From Ruminococcus sp. (GTDB lineage Bacteria; Bacillota; Clostridia; Lachnospirales; Lachnospiraceae), in assembly GCA_023663085.1 (NCBI GenBank), contig JAMPIB010000002.1:1-64000 (forward strand): DNA of 64,000 nt, given 5' to 3'. Shown here piece by piece: positions 5,135 through 62,735 of this stretch. Made by a program: the position numbers and the translations under genes. How positions within the stretch are numbered: the stretch's first letter is position 1; each line of letters opens with the position of its first letter. Under the pieces are notes generated by a model. The model was not told the origin of the DNA. It searched no databases and saw only the letters and a program-made list of their open reading frames with translations.

Positions 5135-6586
5135 CTATCTTGTAAGCAAACTGCAAATATCCTGATAAATAAATTCACATGCCTTACATTTATTTATTTT
5201 CATATAATCCAGTTCTTCTTCCCATATACTCTCTCTGATACCCTTCCTGCTATCTTCTCCCTTTAGAATAACATCCAGCAGGAATTTCTCTATTCCCAAA
5301 TAGTCCTCACCCGGCTTCAGATAATGTCCTTCCAACAATACCTGTCCCAATTCATTAAAAGCCTGTCCTTTCCCTCTTAGAAACAGCAACGGTTTATCCA
5401 CATACAGATATTCTGCAAGAAAAGACGCAGAATCCATGATCATTCCGTCCGAAGTAGCAAAAATATCCAGATAGCTTGTCTCCTGCACCACCTTCGCATT
5501 TGATAATCTATTCCATTCTTCCAGATAAGCATCATACTCTTCATAACTGCTAAATACTCCCGCTTCTACCGCCCGTAAACGCAGATTAGGATGTGGCTTA
5601 AAGATAAATGACACCTTATCCCGATATTTTTTGGCAAGATATAATAAAAACCAGGCATTTTTTGCAAAAGTAGAATATTGGATCCCCCCATAACCCAAAA
5701 AGGAATGATGCGGTGCAATGATCACCTTTTTTACATCTTCCTGCCGTTTATCTTCAGGAATTTTCCATACCGTTCTAATTTCTTCTTCACTGTATTCTTT
5801 TAAAGAATAAAATTGATCCATCTTGATATAACCGGAAAAAATCACATTCTTTCCATGCAGTCGTTCGTACTTGCGATATCCTTCCAGATTTCGTTTTGAA
5901 TCTGCGTACAATCTCCACATCATATTGACAAATTCTTTATTGTATATAAAGTTGACAGCATAAGACTTATCCAGACTGTCTGCTACATATATTCCATATG
6001 GAACATAACAATTGATACAATTAAGCGGAAGAGATGTTATCTGGAATTCTTTTGGTATGGAGCCATACCAGGGAGTCAGATGAATCACAACATCCGGCCT
6101 TCCCCCCAGTTCATCCCATGTCCGGATATGATCGGCTGCATCATCATATCCTCCCCTGATGTCATATCCGTTTTGTTCAAAATACTGACAAGTCTGTCTA
6201 TAAGTATCTTTTCTGCTCTCCTCGTCTCTGTCAATCAAAGGTGCCGTCACAAGATAACACTCTATTGCCTCATTCTGTGCCAACATATGATAAAGTTCTC
6301 CGGCAGACCACTCAGCCGCCGATATAGCCAAAAAAGCTACTTTTATCTTTTCATTGTTTTTTATTTTCTCATGAATTCTTTTTTTTCCACATGCCATTGC
6401 AATATCATACAGTTGTTCATAAAGACGGATTCCATTATCCAGCGCGTCGGCAAATACATATAATGAAAGAAGATGCTCATATGTATACTTTTCGGGTATA
6501 GAATCAATATTATCAAAATCTCCCTGATCAATGCCGGCTAATAATTCTTTCAATAATAAAACAAATCTTTCCTGTTGATCCATCAT
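5135..6586 (-). CDS. CDP-glycerol glycerophosphotransferase-like (TagB/TagF) transferase
   Basis: The C-terminal half carries the signatures of the teichoic-acid polymerase family, which transfers a phospho-alditol from a CDP donor. These are PHHSF, FKPHPNL and a segment with DSASFLAEYLYVDKPLLFL, close to the family's D-S-S-S-x-x-x-E-x-L-x-x-D-K-P pattern. The N-terminal third is helical and less conserved; a Rossmann-like start (IKVAFLAISAAEWSAGELY) begins near residue 80. Total length is 483 residues. A transferase of this family in a flagellin cluster suggests a phosphodiester-linked modification rather than a simple sugar. It overlaps no neighbour and lies 17 bases upstream of the radical SAM start. 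Confidence 0.8.
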   Translation of the reverse strand: MMDQQERFVLLLKELLAGIDQGDFDNIDSIPEKYTYEHLLSLYVFADALDNGIRLYEQLYDIAMACGKKRIHEKIKNNEKIKVAFLAISAAEWSAGELYHMLAQNEAIECYLVTAPLIDRDEESRKDTYRQTCQYFEQNGYDIRGGYDDAADHIRTWDELGGRPDVVIHLTPWYGSIPKEFQITSLPLNCINCYVPYGIYVADSLDKSYAVNFIYNKEFVNMMWRLYADSKRNLEGYRKYERLHGKNVIFSGYIKMDQFYSLKEYSEEEIRTVWKIPEDKRQEDVKKVIIAPHHSFLGYGGIQYSTFAKNAWFLLYLAKKYRDKVSFIFKPHPNLRLRAVEAGVFSSYEEYDAYLEEWNRLSNAKVVQETSYLDIFATSDGMIMDSASFLAEYLYVDKPLLFLRGKGQAFNELGQVLLEGHYLKPGEDYLGIEKFLLDVILKGEDSRKGIRESIWEEELDYMKINKCKACEFIYQDICSLLTR

Positions 6587-15851: not shown

Positions 15852-15885
15852 AAGGCCAGACTGTTAAACAGCCTGACCTTTTTTT
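15852..15885 (+). terminator. Terminator after glycosyltransferase C
   Basis: AAGGCCAGACTG pairs with CAGCCTGACCTT (12 positions, two mismatches) and is followed by seven T on the plus strand. The T run touches the csrA stop codon on the other strand. There is no T run on the minus side, so it appears to act in one direction only. Confidence 0.75.
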
Positions 15886-16103
15886 CAATTCAACAGATTC
15901 TGCAATGCCTCAAGTCCATCGGCATTTACTGCCTCTTTATTGGCATCCTGGATCTGTATATAAACTTCCTTACGGTATACAGGAACCTCCTTCGGAGCAT
16001 TGATGCCAAGCTTCACCTGTTCCCCCTTGATCTCCAGCACCGTGATCTCAACGTTATTGTTGATCATCAGCGCTTCTCCTCTTTTTCTGGATAAAGCTAA
16101 CAT
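15885..16103 (-). CDS. csrA: Translational regulator CsrA
   Basis: CsrA is a small RNA-binding dimer; in Firmicutes it represses flagellin translation and is antagonised by FliW. The 72-residue protein keeps the RNA-contact positions L4, R6, V42, R44 and E46 in the usual frame ([10 protein letters not shown] and [13 protein letters not shown]). The ATG directly abuts the fliW stop codon, so the two are co-translated, the standard Firmicute arrangement. It is the last gene of the flgM operon. A divergent paralogue is encoded at 60226-60513. Confidence 0.96.
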
Positions 16104-16565
16104 TTACTCACCTGCTTTCTTCTTGTTTGCATTCAGAATATCATAGATCGGGAATTTTACCTGATATTCCTCGCCCTCTATGATGACCTGAGCGGCTTTT
16201 CTCTCTGCTGCGTTGATTATCATAGGCCCCTTTAAATTAACTGACATCTTTGTCAGATCCTTGGGAACCGTCATGGTAACAAGTACCAGCAGTTCTTCCG
16301 GATTCAGATCACCGAGCGGTTTTAATAATTCATCATCCACTTCGGGGTTGTACTCAGGACATACGATAAGCGGATCCATGACAGGCATGGCAAACGCCGG
16401 TTCCTGCAAGGACTGTAACCAGTGGATGGAGTCCGAACCTTTCTCGGAATCATGTAACAGGGCAAATTCCGTCAATTCCGGGAATCCGACGATACCTTTC
16501 GGAAATGCAATGATCCTGTCATCATCAATCGTAATCTCACCAAATATTTTTGTCGTTACCTTCAT
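16104..16565 (-). CDS. fliW: Flagellar assembly factor FliW
   Basis: FliW binds either flagellin or CsrA and so couples flagellin translation to export. The 153-residue product shows family landmarks: KIFGEITIDDDRIIAFPKGIVGFPEL at the N-terminus and KMSVNLKGPMIINAAERKAAQVI near residue 120. It lies between flgL and csrA. With csrA and the hairpin in the flagellin leader at 1107-1139, the parts of the known FliW-CsrA-flagellin control loop are all present. Confidence 0.96.
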   Translation of the reverse strand: MKVTTKIFGEITIDDDRIIAFPKGIVGFPELTEFALLHDSEKGSDSIHWLQSLQEPAFAMPVMDPLIVCPEYNPEVDDELLKPLGDLNPEELLVLVTMTVPKDLTKMSVNLKGPMIINAAERKAAQVIIEGEEYQVKFPIYDILNANKKKAGE

Positions 16566-58773: not shown

Positions 58774-60123
58774 TTAACCAAGCAATGAGAGCGCCAGCTG
58801 ATTGGACTGGTTCGCCTGTGCAAGCATGGATGTGCCTGCCTGCTGTAAGATGGAGTTGTTAGCGTACTTAACCATCTCTGTAGCAATATCTGTATCACGG
58901 ATTGCAGCTTCTGCACTTGTCGTATTCTCAACAACGTTATCTGTAACACTCGCGGTCACCTCGGAAGAACGCGCGTCCCCATCCGTACTGCCGTCAGCCT
59001 TATAATCTTGTTCTGTCAATGTCGCGCTGCCTTTCACGTCCACATCATAATCATTGCCTAACAGTTTCTGCAAATCTTCAAGGTTCTTAAAGGAGTTTGC
59101 ATTAGAATCAGTCTTACCTGCATCGTAGGTATAAGTCTTTCCATTGACAGTAATAGACTCCCCATCTGTCAAACCTGTCAGATCAAATGTGTAAGCTGTT
59201 CCGGTTGCCGCTGTACGCATAGCTTCATACTCTGTATCGGTTGGAGAGGCAGCCGTTTCTTTAAATTTATTGTATCTTACTGTTGCTCCTACCGCTCCAT
59301 CACTAGCCTTTGTCAAAGACTCAAATTCTATTTTCTGTACTGCATTTTTTGAATCGTCTGTCTTTGTTCCATCTAACTTGGACTCTACGCTAAGTTTACC
59401 GGATTCATCAACAGATGCTTTAAAGGTTTTCTTTAAGTCTTTATCATTGTTAATCGCCTCTGCCAGATTAGCTGCAGTTGTTTTTGCGTCCGCACCTGTT
59501 TTAAAGGTAACATCTTTCGTTCTGGTATTTCCTTCGTCATCCTTATATGTGACAGTCGCTGTATCTTCTGTACCTGCATCTAATTTTGTGCCAGTTGCCA
59601 TATCCATAGTGCCGCTGAAAATATTACCTTTGGCCTTGGTAACTGTAGCATCCTGGATCTTACCGCCGATATGTCCGCTTACTTCACCCAGCTTTCCGCT
59701 CTTTCCTTCCCCCTTCAACAGATAAGTCTCGTTGAATTTGGTTGTCTCGGAAACACGGTCGATTTCTGTGATCAGCTGATCAATCTCATCCTGTACGGAC
59801 TGTCTGTCAGACTCTGACATAGTTCCGTTACCGGCTTTAATCGCCAGTTCGTTCATTCTCTGTAACATGTCATGAACTTCTGTCAAAGCACCTTCCGCCG
59901 TTTGTACTGCACTGATACCGTCCTGTGCATTTGCAGATGCCTGTGTAAGACCTCTGATCTGCCTTCTCATTTTCTCGCTGATAGCAAGACCCGCCGCATC
60001 ATCAGCCGCACGGTTAATTTTATAACCGGAAGACAGTTTCTCCGTGGACTTCGCCTGTGCACCCGTTGTGATACCGAGCATTCTGTTAGCATTCATTGCT
60101 GTAATGTTGTGTTGTACGATCAT
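58774..60123 (-). CDS. fliC: Flagellin 2 (long variable domain, reduced C-terminal D1)
   Basis: The 449-residue flagellin shares its N-terminal 100 residues and its last 50 (NVVENTTSAEAAIRDTDIA to LALSLLG) with flagellin 1. The middle is a large Thr/Asp/Lys-rich domain with a Flagellin_IN-like segment (SITVNGKTYTYDAG). The conserved C-terminal D1 helix, seen in flagellin 1 as QRSDLGAIQNRLEHT, is missing: the variable domain runs straight into DNVVENTTSAEA. This may alter packing of the filament. The start is at 60123 with AAGGAGG. No promoter is visible between csrA2 and this gene, so it should be co-transcribed with csrA2. Confidence 0.95.
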   Translation of the reverse strand: MIVQHNITAMNANRMLGITTGAQAKSTEKLSSGYKINRAADDAAGLAISEKMRRQIRGLTQASANAQDGISAVQTAEGALTEVHDMLQRMNELAIKAGNGTMSESDRQSVQDEIDQLITEIDRVSETTKFNETYLLKGEGKSGKLGEVSGHIGGKIQDATVTKAKGNIFSGTMDMATGTKLDAGTEDTATVTYKDDEGNTRTKDVTFKTGADAKTTAANLAEAINNDKDLKKTFKASVDESGKLSVESKLDGTKTDDSKNAVQKIEFESLTKASDGAVGATVRYNKFKETAASPTDTEYEAMRTAATGTAYTFDLTGLTDGESITVNGKTYTYDAGKTDSNANSFKNLEDLQKLLGNDYDVDVKGSATLTEQDYKADGSTDGDARSSEVTASVTDNVVENTTSAEAAIRDTDIATEMVKYANNSILQQAGTSMLAQANQSNQLALSLLG

Positions 60124-60151
60124 AAATAGTACCTCCTTGTTTTGTTTGGCT

Positions 60152-60165
60152 GCAATTCCGTTTGC
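60152..60165 (-). promoter_or_regulatory. CsrA-type hairpin in flagellin 2 leader
   Basis: GCAA and TTGC form a short stem with loop ACGGAA. The GGA in the loop lies 29 bases from the start codon, and the Shine-Dalgarno AAGGAGG gives a second GGA. The layout parallels the flagellin 1 leader. The stem is only 4 bp, so this is weaker evidence. Confidence 0.4.
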
Positions 60166-60181
60166 GCCTTTTTTTATTTAT

Positions 60182-60218
60182 AATAATCTCGCGACCCCCG
60201 GGATGGCCGCGAGCTATT
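60182..60218 (-). other. Intercistronic hairpin between csrA2 and flagellin 2
   Basis: AATAGCTCGCG and CGCGAGATTATT pair with a bulge, and the loop contains a further CCCGGG. No T run follows, so it is unlikely to terminate. It may instead stabilise or process the mRNA so that flagellin is made in excess over CsrA2. Confidence 0.45.
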
Positions 60219-60225
60219 ATCCTGA

Positions 60226-60513
60226 CTATGCCTTACCTGACGCAGTCTTTTGTTTCTTAAGCGAATCGTTTATCATAACCTTTTTCTTCCTGTACTTCTC
60301 CGGCAGATCGGGCACCTGCTGATAATGCGGAAGTGCCGCTTTCTCTTCCGGATCGTGCGTATTGTTCTCAATCACCTTGCTTCGCACGATATTCAGTTCC
60401 TTGGGCACATCCAGCATGATCCTGAGATGATTTTTACTTCCGCCCAGAAAAACAATTTTGATATCATCGCCTATCATCAGATAATCTTCTGCCCCTACTG
60501 TCAGTCTTAACAT
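60226..60513 (-). CDS. Divergent CsrA paralogue with C-terminal extension
   Basis: The first 48 residues align with CsrA (MLRLTV, LMIGDDIKIVFLG, then LDVPKELNIVRSKV). R44 and a hydrophobic residue at 42 are retained, but the usual R6 and R7 are Val and Gly, and E46 is Lys. An extra 40-residue basic tail ends in KKQKTASGKA. It may bind RNA differently, pair with the normal CsrA of 15885-16103, or bind FliW. It directly precedes flagellin 2 and follows the invertible segment, so it would be switched on together with that flagellin. GGAGG lies 7 bases before the ATG at 60513. Confidence 0.75.
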   Translation of the reverse strand: MLRLTVGAEDYLMIGDDIKIVFLGGSKNHLRIMLDVPKELNIVRSKVIENNTHDPEEKAALPHYQQVPDLPEKYRKKKVMINDSLKKQKTASGKA

Positions 60514-60560
60514 ATGCAAACCTCCCTGCTTTCCCTTAGTTTTCTAAAGTGCTGCCCTGC

Positions 60561-60587
60561 ATGCAACACTTTGTATAGAAGTGTTGC
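60561..60587 (+). repeat. Left recombination site (inverted repeat)
   Basis: The site has arms GCAACACTT and AAGTGTTGC (9 bp) around the spacer TGTATAG. The arms extend to 13 bp with one mismatch in the flanks. It lies 48 bases upstream of the csrA2 start codon. Confidence 0.85.
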
Positions 60588-60600
60588 GTGCTTGCGCTTT

Positions 60601-60628
60601 TTGCGTATTGTTGTTTTACTGGTATCAT
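60601..60628 (+). promoter_or_regulatory. Possible sigma-A promoter of the recombinase
   Basis: TTGCGT (60601-60606), 16 bases, TATCAT (60623-60628). The match is weak. It lies inside the segment, so the recombinase would be expressed in both orientations. Confidence 0.35.
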
Positions 60629-60672
60629 TACATCGGACAGCATGTATGGCTTTAAGCAGAATGGAGGAAATC

Positions 60673-61254
60673 ATGAGTATAACTTACCCGATCAAAAACA
60701 AACAGGCACTGAACCGTTTTAAGGAGTATTACAGAAAGGTTAAGCCCAACCCCAGAAACTACACCATGATCATCATAGGTCTTAACACCGCATTCAGAAT
60801 CAGTGATCTGCTGCAGCTTCAGTGGCAGGATGTCAGAGATTTTAAAAAAGGAAAATTTTATAAGCATATTTCTATTGTCGAGCAAAAGACGGGCAAGGAG
60901 CGGAGAGTTGCTGTTAATAAGGTAGAACAGCAGACACTTTCCGATTATTTTGCCTTTTGTGAAAATGCCGTACAGACAGATTACCTGTTTCGGAGCAATA
61001 AAAAAAGAGACCGTCCGATCTCTCGTTTTCAGGCGCACCGCATTGTCAAAGAAGCTGCCGACCAGACAGGTCTGGGAGAACATATCAGTTGTCATTCTCT
61101 CAGAAAAACATTCGGTTATCATGCCTGGAAACAGGGAACGCCGCCCGCTATGCTGATGAATCTTTACAATCATTCATCTTATCAGATCACTAAGTGTTAT
61201 CTCGGCATCGAGCAGGAAGAACAGGACAATGTTTATCTTCACATTGAATTATAA
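60673..61254 (+). CDS. Tyrosine site-specific recombinase (RecV-sized invertase)
   Basis: The 193-residue protein is a minimal tyrosine recombinase with all catalytic residues in order: R42 (AFRISDLLQL), K72 (KTGKERRV), H141-x-x-R144 (CHSLRKTFG), H167 (NHSSYQIT) and Y176 (KCYLGI). It lacks an arm-binding domain, like the small phase-variation recombinases such as Clostridioides difficile RecV. Its gene lies entirely between the inverted repeats, so it should invert its own segment. The ATG at 60673 has GGAGG 5 bases upstream; the frame extends back to 60514, but the site decides the start. Confidence 0.92.
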   Translation: MSITYPIKNKQALNRFKEYYRKVKPNPRNYTMIIIGLNTAFRISDLLQLQWQDVRDFKKGKFYKHISIVEQKTGKERRVAVNKVEQQTLSDYFAFCENAVQTDYLFRSNKKRDRPISRFQAHRIVKEAADQTGLGEHISCHSLRKTFGYHAWKQGTPPAMLMNLYNHSSYQITKCYLGIEQEEQDNVYLHIEL

Positions 61255-61298
61255 AAATTTCGTCACAAAAATTTTTTACAAAAAAATTAATTTTACTA

Positions 61299-61326
61299 TA
61301 AAGTATCAGAAAAAGCGTCCGATATA
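61299..61326 (+). promoter_or_regulatory. Sigma-28 promoter inside the invertible segment
   Basis: TAAA (61299-61302), 16 bases, CCGATATA (61319-61326) on the plus strand, identical in both boxes and spacing to the flagellin 1 promoter. The start site would be near 61333, 15 bases before the right repeat. It now reads toward dinB. If the segment inverts, it would read into csrA2-flagellin2 with a leader of about 90 bases. Confidence 0.85.
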
Positions 61327-61340
61327 TAAAGTACAACAGC

Positions 61341-61385
61341 AAAGAATGCAACACTTCTATACAAAGTGTTGCATTCTTTCTTTTA
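61341..61385 (+). terminator. Terminator formed by the right recombination site
   Basis: The 16-bp stem (AAAGAATGCAACACTT with its complement) is followed by CTTTTATG, a T-rich tail. In the present orientation it would stop transcripts of the recombinase and of the sigma-28 promoter before dinB. After inversion the 3' flank would become GCAGGGCAG, without T, so the terminator would be lost. Confidence 0.65.
61348..61374 (-). repeat. Right recombination site (inverted repeat)
   Basis: This is the exact reverse complement of the left site (27 of 27 bases), with spacer CTATACA. Including flanks, its own arms are perfect over 16 bp (61341-61356 and 61364-61379). Confidence 0.85.
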
Positions 61386-61499
61386 TGATATCCCATTTTT
61401 ATTTTATCATACTTTTCCTGATAAGCAGTTTTGTAGTACAATAGAAAAAAAGCTTGGCGGAGCAGATATTCCAGGGCAAATAAGAATGGAGCATTTTTT

Positions 61500-62735
61500 A
61501 TGGAGAGGATCATTTTTCACATCGACGTTAATTCCGCATTTCTCAGTTGGAGCGCGCTGGAAAAACTGCGGCAGGGTTCCGATACCGATCTGCGCACAAT
61601 CCCGGCTATCATTGGCGGCGACATGGCCAAACGTCGCGGCGTGGTACTGGCCAAGTCCATCCCTGCCAAAGCCTTCGGCATCGTGACCGGAGAACCAATT
61701 GTAAACGCCATGCGTAAATGCCCGCATCTTCTCATAGAAACGCCCGATCACGCTTTATACCACCAAAGAAGCCGCGAACTGATGCAGCTTCTATCTGATA
61801 TCTGTCCGGATATCGAACAGGTCAGCGTGGACGAATGCTATATGGACTATACCCCTATCCAAAACCGCTTCGCTTCTCCGACAGACGCCGCGGCCTATAT
61901 CCGCACACAGGTTCTGGAAAAACTGGGTTTTACCGTCAACGTCGGCATCTCGGATAAAAAAGTGCTCGCCAAAATGGCCTCCGATTTTAAAAAGCCGAAC
62001 CTCACCCACACGCTCTATGTCTCTGAGATCCGGGAAAAAATGTGGCCGCTCCCGATCTCCTCGTTATATATGTGCGGTCATTCGAGTGCAGAAACACTCC
62101 GTAAACTGGAGATCATGACCATCGGCGATCTGGCCGGGTGCGACCCGTCCATTGTAACCGCGCATTTAAAGAGCCACGGCAGACTGCTCTGGGAATATGC
62201 CAACGGCATAGATGATTCCATCGTGGAAACGCAGCAGGCGGAGGCCAAAGGAATTGGCAATTCCACAACGCTTGGTAAGGATGTGACTGAAAAAAAAGAC
62301 GCATATCATGTACTGTTATCGTTATCGGAATCTGTTGCCAAAAGACTGCGGGAATCGGGACAGACAGCAGAAATGATCAGTGTGGAAATCAAATACAATA
62401 CTTTCAAAAAAGCTTCTCACCAGATGACGCTGCCAAATCCGACCGCCGGCAGCGATACCATTTACAGAACGGCCTGTATGCTGCTTGACGAACTCTGGGA
62501 CGGAACGCCTATCAGGCTGTTGGGTATCCGCTCCTCCAAACTGCTCTCCGCTGCCGAACCGGTGCAGCTCAATTTATTTGACATGCCTGTCATAAATATG
62601 GAGACCAATGCCTCCGGGCCGCATATTTCCGCACAGAAAGAAGCCAGGCTCGAACAGGCTTTAGATTCCATCCGCCAAAAATATGGAGCAGACGCCATCG
62701 TCAGAGGCAGCCTGCTCCATCCGGGATCAGAGTAA
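61500..62735 (+). CDS. dinB: Y-family DNA polymerase IV (DinB)
   Basis: This is a translesion DNA polymerase. The 411-residue product has IDVNSAFLSWSA with the first catalytic Asp, SVDECYMDY with the second Asp/Glu pair, the thumb helix-hairpin-helix (KLEIMTIGDLAGCD) and a C-terminal little-finger domain. A beta-clamp-binding motif QLNLFDM is near residue 359. The upstream region (61386-61499) is AT-rich with no clear promoter. It is downstream of the invertible segment, but the terminator there argues against control by it. Confidence 0.92.
   Translation: MERIIFHIDVNSAFLSWSALEKLRQGSDTDLRTIPAIIGGDMAKRRGVVLAKSIPAKAFGIVTGEPIVNAMRKCPHLLIETPDHALYHQRSRELMQLLSDICPDIEQVSVDECYMDYTPIQNRFASPTDAAAYIRTQVLEKLGFTVNVGISDKKVLAKMASDFKKPNLTHTLYVSEIREKMWPLPISSLYMCGHSSAETLRKLEIMTIGDLAGCDPSIVTAHLKSHGRLLWEYANGIDDSIVETQQAEAKGIGNSTTLGKDVTEKKDAYHVLLSLSESVAKRLRESGQTAEMISVEIKYNTFKKASHQMTLPNPTAGSDTIYRTACMLLDELWDGTPIRLLGIRSSKLLSAAEPVQLNLFDMPVINMETNASGPHISAQKEARLEQALDSIRQKYGADAIVRGSLLHPGSE

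Follow-up and report, generated by a model that had tools for sequence, protein, structure and literature searches.

A probable self-contained flagellin phase switch carrying its own tyrosine recombinase in a Ruminococcus genome

Why would an intact flagellin operon have no promoter that we can find, while a consensus sigma-28 promoter lies close by and points in the other direction? This question is raised by one locus of the window, by which we mean the whole stretch of Ruminococcus sp. DNA analysed (64,000 nucleotides). The initial annotation of this DNA described a pair of exact 27-bp inverted repeats, each consisting of 9-bp arms and an asymmetric 7-bp spacer, and the window sequence bears out this description. 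The csrA-side site, ATGCAACACTTTGTATAGAAGTGTTGC (60561..60587), is made up of the outer arm GCAACACTT, the spacer TGTATAG and the inner arm AAGTGTTGC, and the distal recombination site (61348..61374) is its exact reverse complement. If the repeats are lengthened to 33 nt, they still match at 94%, and they delimit a segment of approximately 0.8 kb. When up to 3 mismatches are allowed, the palindrome pattern has 2 matches in the window versus 0.01 expected, and none of 100 shuffled windows contained two. At up to 2 mismatches, the site pattern occurs at just two places in the 3.44-Mb assembly.

Between both sites, on the plus strand, lies a gene for a small tyrosine recombinase of 193 amino acids (60673..61254). 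Phage_integrase (1.9e-25) is the sole Pfam match of this protein; the Pfam comparison yielded no match to the serine recombinases of the Hin/Gin family. The NCBIfam model for a tyrosine-type DNA invertase (PRK09871) is matched at 1.9e-11 with 43.9 bits, which is under its cut-off of 222. Tyrosine recombinases rely on the catalytic set R-K-H-R-H-Y, and the window protein carries R42, K72/K75, H141, R144, H167 and Y176. Among 87 aligned recombinases (window included), R42, K72, K75, H141, R144 and H167 are kept in every one and Y176 in 86. In a search of solved structures, the meaningful matches were XerC-like, XerA and XerD chains, and the recombinase was aligned to the XerC-like chain 4a8e. 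Pentatricopeptide repeat proteins, which appeared as top structure matches, were rejected on single-domain E-values of at least 0.65 for the best three. The recombinase gene may have a weak sigma-A promoter of its own (TTGCGT-N16-TATCAT with an extended -10, plus strand, 60601..60628), which was read by eye and was not flagged by the sigma-70 scan.

The sigma-28 promoter, TAAA-N16-CCGATATA (plus strand, 61299..61326), has no mismatch to the consensus used, lies 21 nt from the right repeat and would move with the segment. The open reading frame, the Pfam match and the exact promoter match thus agree with the annotated picture of repeats enclosing a small tyrosine recombinase and a consensus sigma-28 promoter 21 bases inside the right repeat. 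As assembled, the promoter faces dinB, the polymerase IV gene (plus strand, 61500..62735), which is the distal neighbour and probably plays no part in the switch. A second sigma-28-like site, located inside the left end of the segment and facing csrA2 (1 mismatch, 14-nt spacer), was rejected. Its spacing is unlike that of the conserved site. Apart from the four loci with a reversed promoter described below, L090 is the sole csrA-linked locus with another such site at 1 mismatch.

On the other side of the segment, and on the minus strand, lies the operon that we propose is switched. Its first gene, csrA2, encodes 95 amino acids (60226..60513) and matches PF02599 at 4.6e-15. The open reading frame from TTG spans 60226-60519, and our own reading places the start at the in-frame ATG after an SD sequence, 47 bp from the repeat. 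The second gene, flagellin2 (58774..60123), has an intact frame of 449 amino acids with a Flagellin_N match at 5.1e-44. Between the two genes, a hairpin of -20.8 kcal/mol (minus strand, 60188..60213) may be a processing or attenuation site, and may separate the csrA2 and flagellin2 messages. The 350 nt upstream of flagellin2 yielded no sigma-28 site, the best candidate there having 3 mismatches, and the scan flagged no sigma-70-like promoter on the csrA2 strand from 60100 to 61600. Because no other promoter was found, flagellin2 is probably silent as assembled, and the earlier prediction that this flagellin is OFF, its promoter pointing away from csrA2-flagellin2, is supported. Near the start of the window, flagellin1 (about 203-1123) has a perfect fixed sigma-28 site at 1283-1308.

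We consider it highly probable, on the basis of these sequence features and their counterparts in relatives, that the locus works as a flagellar phase switch complete in itself. Its recombinase, encoded inside the segment, would recombine the two inverted sites and thereby flip the 0.8-kb segment together with its sigma-28 promoter. In the OFF phase, which is the one assembled, the transcript would leave away from csrA2-flagellin2 and run straight into the distal site, where a full hairpin and a U-rich tail would stop it. In the ON phase, the inverted promoter would face csrA2-flagellin2, and the site that it must cross lacks a U-tract; in many relatives, the outer arm of this site is also weaker. 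Transcription would then read through this site into csrA2 and flagellin2. The anatomy and the sequence asymmetries are observed directly, and inversion is deduced from homologous loci in both orientations; termination, transcription and any effect of CsrA2 on the mRNAs of other flagellins are the parts of this scheme that we infer.

To place the locus among its relatives, a scan of genome contigs was used, from which 80 loci were kept of 146 confirmed relatives, and a search of 61 whole genomes added more. A relative is carried by 20 of the 36 other genomes of the genus, with best E-values of 1.5e-40 or lower (in G023, the relative is in two pieces). The records are mostly from Lachnospiraceae, and also include Roseburia, Acetatifactor, Eubacterium, Clostridium and a few others. 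The 120 rows examined reduce to 106 distinct recombinase genes, window included, once identical genes are dropped. For 87 of these, csrA and/or flagellin is the adjoining gene. Sigma-28 sites were counted at no more than 1 mismatch, and repeats were called good when at least 20 of 24 positions match. By these measures, 75 of the 87 target-linked loci have a sigma-28 promoter, and 72 of the 75 also have good inverted sites; the other three (L043, L050 and L059) combine a promoter with weak sites (17-19/24). Twelve of the 87 have neither promoter nor good sites, and none has good sites alone. This association of sites with promoter gives a Fisher value of 2.6e-12, calculated on loci that are related to each other. 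Among the 19 recombinase genes that have no csrA or flagellin target, three have good repeats (L116, L121 and L029). Of 75 csrA-linked loci, counted with four duplicates (L114, L115, L117 and L118), 63 have a promoter with at most 1 mismatch in the stretch following the recombinase, versus 41 of 1308 random 250-nt windows. In four loci (L089, L093, L100 and L109), the promoter is on the other side of the recombinase. A second module, L113 (G000:C8), is present in the same genome as the window; it comprises csrA, flagellin, sites, promoter and a recombinase that is 70% identical, and is also OFF. Relatives of the recombinase in L074, L091 and L095 (about position 6000) adjoin genes read as atp and may act on sites elsewhere; no good inverted sites were found at these three loci (16-17/24), which were set aside.

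Both orientations are represented among these relatives. Of the 75 promoter-bearing loci, 70 are OFF, four are ON (L058, L066, L086 and L100) and one, L072, is two-sided and was set apart from the OFF count because flagellins flank both of its sides. Between ON locus L066 and OFF locus L073, 789 bp of the segment align in inverted orientation (74.9%). Their csrA-flagellin sides are collinear (79.5% over 1569 bp; csrA 76.9% over 281 bp), and the break is at the sites. Comparisons of L066 with L062 and with L099 likewise yield an inverted segment, a collinear csrA side and a break at the sites. For L100 (ON) and L093 (OFF), 776 bp are inverted (77.8%) and the csrA side is collinear (80.7% over 212 bp). 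For L086 (ON) and L103, 713 bp are inverted (70.8%), with collinearity limited to the flagellin. The alignment for the fourth ON locus, L058, covered just part of the recombinase. The members of each ON/OFF pair are from different species, with segments 71-78% identical, and some may be paralogous. No alignment was found between the distal flanks of these pairs, and the distal break therefore rests on the alignment ending at the site. A relative in viral contigs, sought for an inversion within one species, was not found. The check proposed in the initial annotation, which was to look for both orientations in related assemblies, thus succeeds at homologous loci between species and for the csrA-side flank only, less strongly for L086/L103. 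On a tree of 73 recombinases, 72 of them labelled, the ON state corresponds to four separate changes. Two of the 75 promoter-bearing genes are missing from this tree, because only one gene was kept from each of two loci that have a pair of recombinase genes.

Comparison of the two sites within each locus yields further results that point to inversion. For this purpose, we used 60 loci, namely those of the 87 target-linked loci with csrA near and a 20/24 repeat match. This choice is by overall repeat match, which gives the spacer no advantage over the arms. Site identity within loci is 99.5% for the spacer, 95.4% for the inner arm and 80.9% for the outer arm. The spacer is the same at both sites in 58 of the 60 loci, and there are 37 different spacers with 46% identity between loci. 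In 45 loci, the csrA-side site has the weaker outer arm; in 11 (window included), the two outer arms are equal, and in 4 the distal one is weaker. All four ON loci have the weaker outer arm on the csrA side. Of the 55 OFF loci, 43 have the T-richer inner end at the distal site (6 equal, 6 reversed), and all four ON loci have it on the csrA side. Outer arms stay and inner ends move, which is what inversion predicts, although the ON loci are few. These findings suggest that inversion of the segment is very likely. The original proposal of an invertible, recombinase-carrying promoter segment accordingly gains support from homologues in opposite orientation, from spacer identity, and from sites and promoter that are jointly present or absent.

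The distal site has a further property. As RNA, it is predicted to form a 16-bp stem with a 7-nt loop and a U-rich tail (plus strand, 61341..61389), and is a probable intrinsic terminator of the OFF phase. The OFF-phase hairpin of the window has a predicted energy of -20.6 to -21.3 kcal/mol (z -6.3), and a terminator scan flags it as one of 5 sites in 1.5 kb versus 1.1 expected. The window's ON-phase site is predicted at -17.0 kcal/mol, followed by 1 T in 12. This ON hairpin is still strong, and the T-tract is the sole difference, because both outer arms of the window are intact. For each of the 60 loci, we folded the site that the sigma-28 transcript would cross in either phase, turning the segment in silico where needed. 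At every one of the 60 loci, the distal (OFF) site gives the stronger fold (mean -18.3 versus -8.8 kcal/mol), and more T follows it in 59, with equality in one (7.6 versus 2.8 of 12); p values for the hairpin comparison overstate its significance because the loci are related. L040 is OFF by promoter direction, and the hairpin result there is the same. We conclude that the distal recombination site probably acts as a terminator in the OFF phase.

A few relatives appear to have targets on both sides. In L072 (4286-8371), a recombinase segment lies between divergent, 79% identical flagellins of 492 and 491 amino acids, and the sigma-28-like promoter faces one of these while a terminator-like tail is missing. 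The 24/24 repeat match recorded for this locus is a longer outer repeat, and the likely sites match at 21/22. Its flanks form an inverted duplication of 78% identity, and the locus is therefore not a simple assembly palindrome. It could be an A/B flagellin toggle. In L116 (3257-6820) and L121 (2892-7670), relatives of the recombinase (46-47% identical) lie inside inverted repeats, exact over 26 nt in L116 and matching at 23/24 in L121, between divergent sugar genes. These encode an epimerase and a TPP enzyme in L116, and NeuB, an epimerase and a nucleotidyltransferase in L121. Such genes raise the possibility of a switch of nonulosonic-acid synthesis, maybe for flagellin glycosylation. A strong hairpin combined with a T-tract was not found in these three likely two-sided loci (L072, -15.2 with 3 T; L121, -13.3 with 2 T; L116, -3.2 kcal/mol with 7 T), which form a small but fitting natural control.

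Three other explanations were weighed against a working phase switch. The segment might have inverted formerly and now be fixed OFF, which would leave flagellin2 as a silent gene in a locked or decaying switch. The excess of OFF over ON (70 versus 4 among 74 one-sided loci) and the 12 of 87 target-linked loci that are devoid of promoter and good sites are consistent with such decay. Since the ON state is rare (4 of 74), switching could indeed be infrequent or biased, or some lineages could have lost it, and the excess possibly reflects a switching bias, or selection in the gut against expression. The window itself, however, has exact sites, a complete recombinase with its catalytic residues and an intact flagellin2 frame, and spacers remain identical within loci, and we regard a locked state as improbable here. 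It is still harder to credit that the repeats are the ends of an element, a mobile recombinase cassette whose orientation was set by its insertion upstream of flagellin operons. A recombinase with repeats alone would suit a small element, and modules do occur at several places per genome. This explanation is nevertheless at odds with the co-occurrence of promoter and csrA, with the 37 spacers among 60 loci that are common to both sites of a locus in 58, and with the four ON loci, in which the weaker outer arm stays on the csrA side while inner ends swap as inversion predicts; we consider it extremely unlikely.

The promoter could also work in both directions, serving dinB as assembled and flagellin2 after inversion. 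It does face dinB as assembled, and the possible two-sided relatives, L072 with its two flagellins and L116 and L121 with their sugar genes, would provide precedents. But a terminator-like hairpin separates the promoter from dinB, and the hairpin with T-tract is absent from the three two-sided loci. Moreover, the distal neighbour varies, being dinB here and a deaminase gene in L113, and no other examined locus matched dinB at 1e-20. Service of dinB by this promoter therefore appears very unlikely. The phase switch that turns csrA2-flagellin2 on and off is the explanation that we carry forward.

The nearest functional relative of this phase switch is Hin-fljBA of Salmonella, and not only RecV of C. 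difficile. In both the Salmonella system and the window, a recombinase gene and an outward promoter, placed near one end, lie inside the segment and a flagellin operon lies outside. In Salmonella, fljB is sigma-28-dependent, and the co-switched FljA represses the other flagellin. The parallel extends to a further gene of the operon, which encodes an RNA-binding regulator (FljA in Salmonella, CsrA in the window), although gene order differs: fljA comes after the flagellin gene, whereas csrA is ahead of it in the window operon. We know of no terminator-like recombination site at hin. E. coli fimS shares a tyrosine-type invertase and an invertible promoter with the window locus, but the small tyrosine-type DNA invertases FimB and FimE are encoded outside the fimS segment and the target is fimbriae. 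Cdi4/RecV is similar in that a tyrosine recombinase inverts DNA at short repeats and affects flagella in a clostridial gut bacterium. It differs in that recV is located elsewhere in the C. difficile genome, away from the switch; the window segment contains both a recombinase gene and a promoter of its own, and what it would switch is a flagellin operon. According to PMC5386303, a tyrosine recombinase controls flagella in C. difficile through short-repeat inversion; the Cdi4 sequence lies upstream of flgB, is 154 bp long and has imperfect repeats of 21 bp, and RecV also serves cwpV. Hin is cited as an example of the occasional recombinase that is encoded within its invertible segment (PMC5903667) and is described as a serine recombinase (PMC8987985, PMC11868660), whereas the window enzyme matches the tyrosine recombinase family.

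The locus is very probably a real, conserved, self-encoded flagellin phase switch, and promoter inversion itself is already known. What is new is the enzyme class with this build, the co-switched CsrA paralogue and the terminator-like site met only in OFF. Invertible promoters of the same general kind have reportedly been found in gut commensals with PhaseFinder (Jiang 2019). Among the literature matches listed, no title or opening abstract has this arrangement, and the tables of Jiang 2019 and Chanin 2024 could list some of the loci.

The main flagellar locus (15885-16565, minus strand) has its own CsrA of 72 amino acids (15885-16103) next to FliW (PF02623, 5.3e-40), and csrA2 is therefore an extra paralogue. 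Module CsrAs are divergent, with 57 of 60 read as 80-113 amino acids versus 72 for the main-locus CsrA. RNA binding by CsrA involves residues L4 and R44, and the 60 module proteins have R44 in every case and L4 in 82%; csrA2 itself keeps R44 and has a C-terminal extension. When flagellin leaders were searched for CsrA-binding sites, 31 of the 49 flagellins that the motif picked out had ACAAGGAGG ahead of the start, but an ordinary ribosome-binding site has this sequence too. We hypothesize that csrA2 might act on other flagellin mRNAs in the manner of FljA.

A broader reading, which we offer tentatively and with some doubt, is that gut Lachnospiraceae have convergently re-invented Hin-fljBA with a tyrosine recombinase, a phase-dependent terminator, a private FljA-like CsrA that would silence the other flagellins, combinatorial flagellins from several modules per genome, and sugar-gene toggles. 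Hin would then have a clear-cut convergent counterpart, with a testable role of a recombination site as a terminator, and immunodominant commensal flagellins would be phase-variable antigens. Lachnospiraceae flagellins are portrayed as major targets of antibodies in Crohn's disease, with an immunogenicity termed somewhat puzzling (PMC11285207). For three fliC genes of Eubacterium/Roseburia, work published in 2013 found neither a sigma-28 nor a sigma-43 promoter upstream (PMC3720852). Switches in the OFF phase are possibly one reason for this result. If many flagellin genes sit behind switches that are mostly OFF in assemblies, then the flagellin displayed would be set by orientation rather than by gene content, and metagenomic gene counts would mislead. 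Orientation could be scored directly from existing read data.

Switch modules are also found in the genomes of named isolates, namely Eubacterium sp. 14-2 (L088), a source of flagellins recognised in Crohn's disease, and Lachnospiraceae bacterium A2 (L096); L076 is from a further cultured isolate, 1xD8-48. In five loci (L062, L066, L073, L105 and L111), several tandem copies of flagellin and csrA lie behind or beside one or two switches.
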